In this document: positions 19,141 through 36,758 of the stretch, piece by piece
How positions within the stretch are numbered: the stretch's first letter is position 1
Layout: every line of letters starts with the position of its first letter
Assembly: GCA_028873125.1 (NCBI GenBank)
Contig: JAGWMQ010000020.1
Span: forward strand, 1 to 37,597
Direction: 5' to 3'
DNA length: 37,597 nucleotides
Source of the DNA: Verrucomicrobiota bacterium
GTDB lineage: Bacteria; Verrucomicrobiota; Verrucomicrobiia; Limisphaerales; UBA11358
The notes under the pieces: generated by a model
What the model was told of the DNA's origin: nothing
The model's database searches: none
What the model saw: the letters and a program-made list of their open reading frames with translations, nothing else
Program-made: the position numbers and the translations under genes

Positions 19141-19226
19141 TCTCGCTGCTTCATCCACGGCGCTTCATCGTTTCATCGAAAAGGATTGCCTTGAACGCGC
19201 CGGGCTTTCCAGAATCCAATTCCCTG

Positions 19227-20663
19227 ATGAAATTGTCTTGTTTCAACCGGCCGGGCCGGCTGTCGTTCTGCGCGGTGCTCACGGCCGCGATTCTGCAATC
19301 CCTGTCGGCAGGCGCTCAATCGGCGTCCACCTATGCCGCGCACCGCCCGCTGCCGCGGCGGGCCAATCTCATTTTAATCGTCGCCGACGGCCTGGGCTAT
19401 GGCGACCTGAGATGTTACGGCCAGAAACATTTTCAAACGCCGGAACTGGACCGGCTCGCCGCCGGGGGAATCCGCTTCACCAGTTTTTACGCGGGCGATG
19501 CGGAGGTGTCACCGGCGTTCGCGGCGCTATTGCTGGGCCGGAACCCGGCGCATTTGCGGCAGAGCGCCGACCTCCATGCGCCGCTGGCGGCAAACGACGC
19601 GACGGTGGCGAAGGTGTTGAAGCAATCCGGCTATCACACCGGCTACATTGGCCAATGGGATTTGGGCGACGAGGGCACGAGTGGCGCGCCGTGGAAACAG
19701 GGCTTCGAGGAATTCGCCGGATACCTCGGGCCGCGGGACGTGGAAACCGCCTATGCCGATTTCATGTGGCGTTTCGCCCCGGGCAGCGTGCTGGATTCGA
19801 CGAACGGGCGAAGACGAGATTTCATCGGCAAGGAAACGATTTATGCAAACACGGGCGGCCGAAAAACCGAGTACATCCCCGACCTGCTCACGAAGGCGGC
19901 GCTGAACTTCATCCGGAACAACCAGCCCGACCCCTTCAACAATCACCGCCCGTTTTTCCTGGTCCTGCAGTATCAGATCCCCGGCGCCGGCGACCCGGTG
20001 GTGCCTTCCGACGCGCCGTATTCGGAGGAGCCCTGGCCGCAGCCGGAAAGAAACAAGGCCGCCGCCATCACACGGCTCGACGGCTACATTGGGCAATTGC
20101 TCGAGCAGCTGGACAAACTGGGGCAGGCCAGCAACACGGTGGTTTTTTTCACCAGCGACACCGGTCCCGCCCGTGGTGGAGGCGTGGATCCGGCATTTTT
20201 GCAGAGCACCGGACGGTTCCGCGGCGGGCGCGGCGATCTGTATGAAGGCGGGCTGCGCGCGCCGCTCCTCGTCCGCTGGCCGGGAAGAATCCCCGCCGGA
20301 CAAGTGAGCGACCTGCCCCATGCCGCCTGGGACTTTCTGCCGACGGCTGCCGACATCGCGCTGGTCAATCCGCCGGCGGACCTTGACGGCCATTCTTTTG
20401 TCCGGGCGTTGATGGGGCAAAAGGCCGCGTCCGGCCGTCAATTCTTCTACTGGCGGTTGGACCGCGGTTCCGCCGTCGAACAGGCCGCGCGGCAGGGGGG
20501 ATGGAAAATCATCCGCACGCGTCCGAACGAAAAATGGGAACTCTACAACCTCGGCGCCGATCCCGGTGAAACCCAAAACGTCGCGGACAAAAACCCCGGC
20601 GTGCTGGCCAGGTTTGAGCGGCAACTGCCAAAGCCGCAGACGGCCCGCCCCTCCGGGTTGTGA
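19227..20663 (+). CDS. Sulfatase-fold protein, probably catalytically inactive
   Basis: ANLILIVADGLGYGDLRCYGQKHFQTPELDRLAAGGIRFTSFYAGD...; overall arylsulfatase layout (ITRLDGYIGQLLEQLDKLG, VVFFTSDTGP, GGLRAPLLVRWPGRI), but the CxPSR site reads VSPAF. Confidence 0.88.
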   Translation: MKLSCFNRPGRLSFCAVLTAAILQSLSAGAQSASTYAAHRPLPRRANLILIVADGLGYGDLRCYGQKHFQTPELDRLAAGGIRFTSFYAGDAEVSPAFAALLLGRNPAHLRQSADLHAPLAANDATVAKVLKQSGYHTGYIGQWDLGDEGTSGAPWKQGFEEFAGYLGPRDVETAYADFMWRFAPGSVLDSTNGRRRDFIGKETIYANTGGRKTEYIPDLLTKAALNFIRNNQPDPFNNHRPFFLVLQYQIPGAGDPVVPSDAPYSEEPWPQPERNKAAAITRLDGYIGQLLEQLDKLGQASNTVVFFTSDTGPARGGGVDPAFLQSTGRFRGGRGDLYEGGLRAPLLVRWPGRIPAGQVSDLPHAAWDFLPTAADIALVNPPADLDGHSFVRALMGQKAASGRQFFYWRLDRGSAVEQAARQGGWKIIRTRPNEKWELYNLGADPGETQNVADKNPGVLARFERQLPKPQTARPSGL

Positions 20664-29663: not shown

Positions 29664-32561
29664 TCAGCGTGTTGCCCGCTGTGGGCGCGCGACTTTGCGG
29701 ATCGCGGCAATGAGTTGCTCCGCGGCGGCGCTCCTGGCCAGGTAACTGGCGGCGCCGGCGCCCAGGATGGTCGCGCCCAGGTCGGGGGCCATCGAAAGGC
29801 CGATCACCCGCACCGACGGCAATTCGCCGGTGACGACCCGCGTCGCTTCGATGCCGTTCAGGACCGGCATGTTGATGTCCATGACCACCACGTCCGGCTT
29901 GAGTTGGCGTGCCTGGGCGATGGCTTCCCGGCCGTCGTTGGCCTCGCCCGCCACCGCCAGGTCGGGCTGGCTGTTCAACAAGCTGCCCAAGGCCTCGCGC
30001 AGGATTTTGTGGTCGTCCACCAGCAAGACGCGGATTTTGTCGGCGGCGCGGACGGGCCGGGGGGATGGAAGGGGCACGGCTGCGGGCGATGCGTGCGCCG
30101 CGGTCTGCCGCGGCGGCGGAGCCGGCTCAGGCAGCGGGGCTTCGAGCGCAATCCGGGCGCCCCGGCCCGGCGCGGCGCGGCAACTCCCGGTTCGACTGCT
30201 CTTTGCGGAGCAACTCGGCGTGGACGCGGGCGCCCACCAGCAGTTGATGGAGTTGATCGTGCAGGACCTGGGCCTGGCGCTGGCGCTCGCGGTACTCGGT
30301 GCGGGTCAGCTCCAAGCCCAGGCGGCGCAATTGGGTGGTGCGGACCTGGAGTTCGTCGTTGGACTGCCGGAGCCGTTGCTCGGCCCGCACGCGCCCGGCC
30401 ACTTCTTTCTGCAGCTCCTCGAGCATGGCCTGCAACGATTCGCGCGTGGCCCCCAACTCCTCGCGCAGCCGCCTCGTCTCGTTCTCCTGGGCCGTGGTCC
30501 GACCGCGGACGGTTTTGGCCGGGCGCGCCTTTTCCGGCGCGCGCGGGCGGCCGAGGCGACCGACCGGCTCGAAGAGGACGAGATAAAATCGCTCGGCCGA
30601 ATGCGGCACCTGGAAGGGGATGACTTCGAGCTTGACTTCCAGAACATGGCCGTTCTGTTTGACGCTCACGACTTCCTGGCGGATGCGGACGTTTTGGCGG
30701 ATTGCCCGCGTGGTGAGGGTGCGCAGGTCCAGCAGCAGCCCTTCCCGTGCCATCTTGAGGAGATTCAGGCTGGCTTCGCCCTGCGGGTGTTCGAGGTAGG
30801 GGCCGGTCCGGCCGCGGAACTGGAGCACGTCCAGGTGCCGGTTGACGACCACGCCCGCCGGGCTGTAATGCGTCAGCAGGATCCGGTCGGCCTGTTTCTG
30901 CACTTCGGCCAGCGCCAGCGTGAGCGGCCCGGGGACGGCCGCCGGCCGCCGCCGGCAGTTCGGGGATGGCATGGCCGAAGGCGACGGCGGGGCGCGTCTG
31001 GGAGGCCATTTTGCCGTAGAGCTTGGCTTTCTTGTCCACGAGCGCGAACAGGTCCTGAAACCCGCCCACGGTTTCGGAGGCGCCCAGCATCAGGTAGCCG
31101 GTGGGTTTGAGCGCATAATGGAACAGGGGCATGACCTTGCGTTGCAGCGGGGCGCCCAGGTAAATGAGCACGTTCCGGCAACTGATCAAATCCAGGCTCG
31201 AAAACGGCGGGTCCGCCACCAGGTTCTGGCGGGCAAAGACGCACCGCTCACGGACGGTTTTGTTGATGCGAATGCCGCCCCCGGCCTTCGTGAAAAACCG
31301 GCGCAGGCGGTCGGCAGAGACGTCGGTCTTGATGGTTTCGGGGTATAGCCCGGCCCGGGCCTTTTCCAGCGCCCTGTCGTTGATGTCGGTCCCGAAAATT
31401 TGCAGCGGATTGTGCGCCTTGCGTTCGGTGAGGAATTCCAGCGCGGCGATGGTCAGGGAATAGACCTCCTCGCCGGTCGAACAGCCCGGCACCCAGATGC
31501 GGACCGGGTCGTCGGACGATTTGGATTTGAAAAGGCGCGGGAAGATTTTCCACCGGAGCGTCTGGAACGTGACCGGATCCCGGAAAAAGCCCGTCACGTG
31601 GATGAGCATGTCGTCGTAAAGCTCCTTGATCTCGCGGGGATTGGAGCGCAGGCAGGCGGCGTAATCTGGGAGCGACTCCAGCTTGTGTAGACCATCCGCC
31701 GCTGGATGCGCCGCTGCAGCGTGGCCCGCTTGTAGAGCGAGAAATCCCCCCCGTGTGCTGCCGCAAAGCCAGCAGGATGTCCTCGAAGCCCTTGAGTTCG
31801 GCCGGTCGCTCCGGCTCGGTCTCCTCAATGGGCGCCACGAGGGGATGATCGGCAATCCGGCTCAGCTCCTGCGCGATCCGCTCGGGCGGCAGCACAAAAT
31901 CCGCGCACTCGGCCGTGATGGCGCTGCCGGGCATGGCCGGATACTTCGCGGTCTTTTCCTCCTGCGCGAAGGTGATGCCGCCGGCGGCCTTGATGGCCCG
32001 CAACCCCTGCGTGCCGTCCGAGCCGTTGCCGGACAGGACCACGCCGATGGCGCGGTTGCCCTCCGCCTCGGCCAGTGATTGGAAGAAATGGTCCACAGCG
32101 GGCGAAGTGTCGCTGTCGCGGTGCGGCAGGAGTTTGAGGCGCCGGCCCGAGATGCCCATCAACTTGTTGGGCGGGATGACATAAAGCTGGTTGGGGGCCA
32201 GCCGGGCGTTGTGCCGGGCTTCGGAAACGGGCATGCCCGTGGACCGGGTGAGGATCGCGGTCAGCGCGCTCTCGTGCGTCGGATCCAAATGCTGCACCAG
32301 CACGAACGCCATGCCCGTGTCGGACGGCAGTTGTTTCAGGAGGGCGGTCATGGCCTCCAACCCGCCGGCGGAGGCGCCGATGCCGACCACGAGGAACGGC
32401 TGGTTGGCCTCGGCGGGCTTGCCGCCGGCCGGTTCTGTCCTGGCTTTGGCCGGGAGGCGGGTGACTACACGATGGACTTTGCGCAGCCCCGCCACGGGCG
32501 AGGTTTTCCGCGAAGTCCTTTTTGCGGCGGTCATTGAACTCCTCCTGCCTTTGCCTTTCAT
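29664..32561 (-). pseudogene. CheB-CheR-PAS-DHp-(ATPase deleted)-receiver hybrid, multiply frameshifted
   Basis: CheB (FLVVGIGASAGGLEAMTALLKQL, VQHLDPTHES, SGNGSDGTQGL) in ORF 31248..32561. CheR (HVTGFFRDPVTF, IWVPGCSTGEEVYSLTIAALEF, FSSLDLISCRNVLIYL) in ORF 29975..31855. PAS + DHp (AGVVVNRHLDVLQFRGRTGPYLEHPQGEASLNLLKMAREGLLL, VLHDQLHQLLVGARVHAELL) in ORF 30127..30972. Receiver (IRVLLVDDHKILREAL..PDVVVMDINMPVLNG) in ORF 29664..30077. All same strand and in the canonical domain order. Confidence 0.85.
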
Positions 32562-35882: not shown

Positions 35883-36758
35883 TTAGTGCCATGTTTCGGG
35901 ATGCGGCTGATGATCATTGTTCCATCTTTGGCGAGCGGAGGCAACCGCCTTCATCCAGTTGGTTTGTTTGCTGAATTCGACGTGGCCGTCACAAAACACA
36001 ACGTTCCCGCCACCGTCGTGGCGGTCCGTGATGTAATCGTCCGCGTAATCTAAAGCCCCGTCAATATCGCCATCTTGTGTGAACGGAAAGGCCGCCGTAT
36101 ATGAATAGCGTCCAAAGTTTGTCGGTGCGGGATAATCTCCGATTGCAATCATGTCGCATGGGGCCAGCACCTTGGCCTCCGGCAGCGCGTGGAACTCGGA
36201 CTGGATTCCCCTGCGGCCACCCGGCCCTGGCAAGGGTATCGAAACAGCATACCAATCCCCAGCCAAGCCGAGGTTCCGTTCCTGCTCATTAACGCTGCCT
36301 CTGCCTGTACCTGAATCATTGTAGCCATAACTCGGATTGAAAAGCGCAAGGTTGGTCCATTGCGGATGAGAGGATATGGCCGGACAAAGATAAAGCGTCG
36401 TATTGCTTCCCGCGTATTGTAGAAGGGCCGAATCCCATTTGAAATCCCATTTTAGAGTAATGGCTGAAATGCCAAGTGCCCACGCGGGATATCCCCCGGT
36501 TTCATTCACATAAAGCTGCAATGCGATGCCAAGCTGGTTGAGGTTGTTAACGCAAACGATTCGTTGAGCTTGAGATTTGGCCTTGGACAAGGACGGCAGG
36601 AGCAAGGCTGCCAGGATGCCGATAATGGCAATCACCACCAGCAATTCAATGAGTGTAAAACTCGGCTCATTTCGCGCAGGAGTGCCGTGTTGATTCCAGG
36701 CTGTAACTTTGGCGGCAGTGGCTGGCTTTCGTCTGCAATGGCGAGTGTCACATTCCAT
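35883..36758 (-). CDS. Prepilin-type N-terminal methylation protein (DUF1559-like pseudopilin)
   Basis: [55 protein letters not shown]-terminal [18 protein letters not shown]. Confidence 0.92.

Follow-up and report, generated by a model that had tools for sequence, protein, structure and literature searches.

Background

In the S1 FGly-sulfatases (SulfAtlas S1; PF00884) the catalytic arginine is 99% conserved, and nine putative S1 sulfatases of Lentisphaerae and Planctomycetes that lack it are perhaps inactive (PMC5066984). For S1 proteins that remark is the only earlier hint found in our literature search, which retrieved no paper using the word 'pseudosulfatase'. In Enterobacteria, YejM/PbgA is reported to be a pseudo-hydrolase scaffold, sulfatase-like and without catalytic residues, that senses lipid A (PMC13125744); the title of another paper terms it a metalloenzyme (PMC7576196).

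Here we describe an open reading frame from a bacterium of the order Limisphaerales (Verrucomicrobiota), located in a window of 37,597 nucleotides (the whole stretch of DNA analysed). Its product shares with the periplasmic domain of YejM/PbgA/LapC a sulfatase-like fold without the catalytic residues. YejM, of the LtaS/EptA branch, carries a multi-helix membrane domain, whereas the window protein would be a free secreted protein of the S1 branch, with a single signal-like N-terminal helix in its model; at 19.7 bits against the YejM model (cut-off 825), it is not a member of that family. The nine Lentisphaerae and Planctomycetes sequences are, like the clade described here, S1 proteins of the PVC superphylum suspected to be inactive. 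However, they are reported to lack one residue, while this clade has lost nearly the whole site, genus-wide, with selection and context as additional evidence. We consider it a genuine pseudo-sulfatase family, of which no earlier description was found.

The predicted protein and its catalytic positions

The features of the coding sequence are as follows (window coordinates).
19227..20663, + strand: pseudo-sulfatase CDS, 478 aa, S1-sulfatase fold without catalytic residues (sequence, Pfam and model)
19227..19319, + strand: signal-peptide-like N-terminal segment (sequence; hydrophobic leaders at the same place in orthologues)
19386..19391, + strand: former metal Asp pair, now D54-G55 (D 100%/D 100% in active relatives; mostly H/G in the degenerate clade)
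19506..19520, + strand: former CxPSR FGly site, now V94-S-P-A-F98 (Cys 100% and Arg 100% in active relatives)
19653..19655, + strand: former GKW lysine, now Q143 (E in 33/41 clade members)
19983..19985, + strand: former PH histidine, now G253 (R in 34/41 clade members)
20157..20162, + strand: former SDNG Asp-Asn, now D311-T312 (alignment with active relatives)
20229..20231, + strand: former distal lysine of FRGxK, now R335 (alignment with active relatives)
20238..20594, + strand: SGSH_C-matching C-terminal subdomain (retained in the window copy; short or missing in most of the clade)

The frame is unbroken from the ATG at 19227 to the stop at 20663. Pfam Sulfatase (PF00884) matches residues 47-378 with 156 bits (cut-off 25) and SGSH_C matches residues 338-456 with 60 bits, the two together spanning nearly the entire length, so that the intact S1 arylsulfatase layout proposed in a first-pass annotation is borne out. 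The whole fold, the signal peptide, the core invariants and the C-terminal SGSH_C subdomain are common to this protein and the S1 FGly-sulfatases; the FGly nucleophile, the catalytic Arg, Lys and His, the second calcium Asp, the Asn and the distal Lys are not. The AlphaFold2 model has a pTM of 0.83 and a mean pLDDT of 79.5. Its N-terminus, in which a single signal-like helix (residues 15-29) is modelled, is of low confidence. S1 sulfatases are the best PDB matches both by sequence and by fold (Foldseek E about 1e-41), the nearest folds being 7AN1, 7OQD and 7ANB, from work on the colonic mucin sulfatases of a gut symbiont. The N-terminus is predicted to be a type I-like export signal, no lipobox being seen on inspection of this segment, and hydrophobic leaders are kept across the orthologues.

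Nine catalytic positions (two Asp, Cys, Arg, Lys, His, Asp, Asn, Lys) were compared in the alignment. They read DDCRKHDNK in active relatives from the same order and from other phyla, and DGVFQGDTR in the window protein. Seven are therefore altered (FGly Cys, Arg, GKW Lys, PH His, second Asp, SDNG Asn and distal Lys), and the survivors are the first Asp (D54) and the SDNG Asp (D311). The corresponding motifs are VADGLGYGD, VSPAF, GQWDLG, QIPGAG, SDTG and FRGGR (FRGxK in active relatives). The earlier reading had listed the replacements in all of these but the last, each of which is present where it was placed, and had taken them together as loss of catalysis. This holds for the seven positions above but not for the His of GKWHLG, whose change is uninformative because about 86% of the active relatives used have Gly there (GKWGLG). 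The Cys/Ser nucleophile of the published pattern C/S-x-P/A-x-R is absent from the window protein, although that pattern is insensitive, being found in 4/42 members of the degenerate clade and in 18/38 active sequences. The second S1 signature, G-Y-x-[TSCV]-x3-G-K-..., is found in 32/38 active sequences and 0/42 clade members, and is lacking in the window protein as well.

Distribution of the degenerate clade and its remodelled pocket

A degenerate orthologue, one per genome, is present in 43 of the 49 genomes of the genus, and all of these are catalytically degenerate; it was not found in the other six, an absence bounded by genome completeness. The orthologues sampled from the sister families f9, f36 and f23 have the full DDCRKHDNK. 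In a first tree the degenerate proteins of the genus and that of G058 form a single clade (SH-aLRT 97-99) whose nearest active relatives are G053 and G043, and in a wider tree this clade also takes in the degenerate pair G092/G093 (SH-aLRT 96). Both trees come from quick searches, and positions beside long branches are less certain. The window copy is thus not the lone degenerate one, and the homologue search proposed in the first-pass annotation returned a monophyletic group. Other families of the order have active forms, which also exist as separate paralogues. The pair from another family, L215 (G092) and L218 (G093), reads DNDRTHVSQ and DSDRTVVNQ.

Each orthologue of the genus has lost between four and nine of the nine positions. 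The least altered is that of G060 (DDSREGDTR), while most others read H-G-x-x-E-R with further losses. Across the clade, the former first-Asp position is His in 27/41 members, the nucleophile position is hypervariable, with 11 different residues (S, F, G, A and others), and the SDNG Asp/Asn and the distal Lys are mostly gone. The four calcium ligands (Asp, Asp, Asp, Asn), of which the window protein retains two, are not conserved. A shared VSPAx/GQWDLG motif, which had been suggested as the mark of such a family, does not recur as such; the clade has a variable nucleophile position, with E and R at the former Lys and His positions. The recurrence of this Glu (33/41) and Arg (34/41) argues that the pocket is not drifting freely.

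The same residues raise the alternative that the pocket has gained a new chemistry, with H at the first Asp, E at the GKW Lys and R at the PH His, since conservation at this level is unlike random drift. We consider such a new enzyme unlikely, because H and R are missing from the window protein and from the G031/G032/G060 branch, the window protein has Q in place of E, the nucleophile position varies so widely, and the loss of the SDNG Asp/Asn and distal Lys in most members leaves no conserved metal site.

Gene neighbourhood

The immediate upstream neighbour is, in 35 of the 43 genomes, a same-strand gene for an AmpG-like MFS protein, in front of which a divergent DUF554 gene and an Hsp70 gene are often found; in 23 of the 43 an MFS_3 gene lies downstream. 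Since MFS_3 and DUF554 also occur near orthologues outside the genus, this neighbourhood seems in part to predate the loss of activity: MFS_3 is found 3' of active sulfatases in G097/G098 and directly 3' of the degenerate sulfatase in G092, and DUF554 lies close to the orthologues of G132 and G145. AmpG-like homologues occur in 44 of the 49 genomes of the genus; among these 49, neither the window genome nor G020 has one. Three genomes (G003, G017 and G030) keep the AmpG-like gene and lack the pseudo-sulfatase. As each gene occurs without the other in some genomes, the linkage is suggestive but not obligatory. In the window genome, an MFS_3 homologue (64% identity) is encoded on a different contig. 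The name AmpG-like is kept, and muropeptide transport is not established, because the match to TIGR00901 is far below the cut-off (159 bits against 350 for the G022 protein) and none of the genomes examined has a match above it. One AmpG-like permease (L080:9745-11634) has about 630 aa, with a mid-protein insert of roughly 200 residues, and has relatives in G007, G008, G016, G021, G028, G066, G067, G069 and G070; other members of the genus have about 450 aa.

Sulfatases in which the active site is complete (L003 and L004) and a protein with an FGE domain are also encoded in the window genome, as would be expected if the pseudo-sulfatase regulated an active paralogue or helped it to fold, rather than binding a ligand. 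However, several genomes of the genus that carry the pseudo-sulfatase have just 3-5 sulfatase candidates, and in the genus loci examined no active sulfatase adjoins it, which makes a subunit role improbable, somewhat more so than a new chemistry. One contig of the window genome (G000:C137; L003, L117) carries an apparently active sulfatase and, some 1.8 kb away, an FGE-domain protein.

Selection and the upstream element

Between-species pairs with unsaturated dS gave dN/dS values (Nei-Gojobori) of 0.13-0.32 for the pseudo-sulfatase, and in the same genomes of 0.09-0.17 for active sulfatases and 0.07-0.33 for the neighbouring permease genes. The G062/G063 pair was left out as a probable wrong ORF pairing (27% identity over 162 residues). 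The orthologue frames are open in the members retrieved, some of them clipped by contig ends. Compared with 35 active orthologues from the same order, the losses in the clade cluster at the catalytic pocket and in the C-terminal subdomain, where positions 404-453 are gapped in about 40-70% of members, and the fold-core positions are invariant in both groups. Newly constrained positions include W156 (100%, the clearest), S62, P185, G201, E203 and P218, and also E143 and R253. P260, P264, W270 and R283 were at one point counted as gained, and were dropped after comparison with close active orthologues. Divergence within the clade is fast (mean pairwise identity 0.49), and the C-terminal subdomain is often lost; a binding surface is therefore not strongly fixed.

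Upstream of the gene lies a conserved element.
19179..19219, + strand: bipartite promoter-like element AAAAGGATTGCCTTGAACGC-N10/11-CCAGAATCCAA (38/41 match to the genus consensus)

The last base of this 41-bp element in the window is 7 bp before the ATG, and across the genus the gap is mostly 5-9 bp. Its layout is AAAARAATTGCWTTGAACGC, a variable spacer and CCAGAATCMAA, with fixed spacing between the blocks, and conservation is sharply bounded, the flanking information being about zero upstream. The exact 34-bp core pattern matches in 24 of the 49 genomes, once in each except G061 (two contigs), and the reversed pattern has no match in the 49. In the genomes checked, the core is found solely before the pseudo-sulfatase gene. 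When up to three mismatches were allowed in seven genomes, there was at most one site per genome (19186-19219 in the window), and the idea of a shared regulon was rejected for want of a second site. Scored over 22 core positions, 36/42 clade copies reach at least 18, while orthologues outside the genus are mostly at the level of shuffled sequence, with G057 borderline at 16. A conserved reading RIALNAPxFPES ahead of the Met was considered as an N-terminal extension and rejected, because conservation is at the DNA level and all three frames with respect to the ATG occur (mod 0, 1 and 2), which makes the element a DNA signal and not coding. The element resembles a promoter that would give a nearly leaderless transcript, and as a guess its sigma class could be sigma-70-like (TTGCWT-N18-CAGAAT) or ECF-like (GAAC-N18-TC). 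No RNA family was found at the locus.

The fast divergence, the repeated loss of the C-terminal subdomain and the six genomes of the genus without the gene could also indicate a redundant gene under relaxed selection that is still open by chance, and the window copy is no longer at the ancestral locus, having lost both usual neighbours. Yet the frames are intact, dN/dS is low, the signal peptides are retained, and the window copy has kept its upstream element even after relocation. Slow decay is accordingly quite improbable, and the suggestion in the first-pass annotation of selection for a non-enzymatic role, as opposed to random decay, agrees with the dN/dS values, the open frames and the conserved gene-specific element.

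Proposed role and origin

A non-enzymatic role of the clade proteins is well supported. The specific role is most likely that of a secreted ligand-binding, sensor or scaffold protein, in line with the binding or scaffold function first proposed. Overall, the best explanation, to which we give a probability of about 0.65, is a vertically inherited pseudoenzyme that is exported and acts as a non-catalytic binder or sensor of envelope glycans. It would derive from a conventional S1 carbohydrate sulfatase that Limisphaerales secrete; catalysis and calcium binding were lost in the common ancestor of the genus, and probably of two neighbouring lineages, while the fold and the export signal were kept under purifying selection. 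Judging from its conservation, the promoter-like element would drive expression of the gene, whose usual partners at the locus are the AmpG-like inner-membrane permease and the MFS_3 permease. The remodelled former substrate pocket would bind an envelope-derived or environmental glycan, which would then be sensed or handed on; the protein would act without chemistry in a transport or regulation module of the envelope. The lipid A-sensing pseudo-hydrolase domain of YejM/PbgA is our working analogy for this mechanism. That the protein is a still-active FGly sulfatase using Ser or another residue is hardly credible: SSPSR, a legitimate Ser-type FGly motif, is kept in G060, G031 and G032, but these members too have lost the Lys, His, Asn and distal Lys, and in the window protein the site is occupied by Val and the Arg that is 99% conserved (PMC5066984) is replaced by Phe.

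Database annotation would label all proteins of the clade as sulfatases, although the standard residues indicate that they cannot cut. Sulfatase counts are used to infer the use of sulfated glycans by PVC bacteria. The gene-specific promoter-like element and the permease neighbours are concrete handles on function.

Nucleophile losses elsewhere in the order

In G145, G051 and the G042 group (G042/G172/G217/G218/G224/G225/G228/G311) the nucleophile alone is lost and the other eight positions are intact (DDG or DDD followed by RKHDNK). The FGly Cys is replaced by Gly or Asp, with the catalytic and metal remainder kept, in L102, L219, L220, L221, L216, L233, L234, L229, L212 and L029. Such proteins are possibly natural substrate-trapping proteins, and the same residue appears to have been lost first, repeatedly, within the Limisphaerales. 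With intact, nucleophile-only-lost and fully rebuilt pockets in one order, the stepwise birth of a pseudoenzyme is directly testable. A tentative joint reading, which we consider rather doubtful, is that this sulfatase turned non-enzymatic several separate times in the order, the nucleophile being lost first and the whole pocket rebuilt afterwards, to give a new class of envelope proteins that bind or sense sulfoglycans. If so, the nucleophile-only-lost forms (G145, G051 and the G042/G217/G311 group) would bind sulfated glycans without cutting them, and living lineages would display the order of the steps, with the genus of the window at the stage of the fully rebuilt pocket. A Bacteroidia relative (L059, 5001-6353) has the Ser-type FGly site SxPSR and all remaining catalytic residues intact.

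Other genes in the window

At 29978-32561 on the minus strand, a CheB domain (31251-32561) and a CheR domain (29978-31855) overlap but are read in different frames; as CheB-CheR fusions are common, this may be a frameshifted fusion gene, and it is one candidate for the frameshift decay of other window genes proposed in the first-pass annotation. The minus-strand gene at 35886-36758 encodes a protein with an N-methylation motif and DUF1559 (SBP_bac_10), a pseudopilin-like type common in PVC bacteria.
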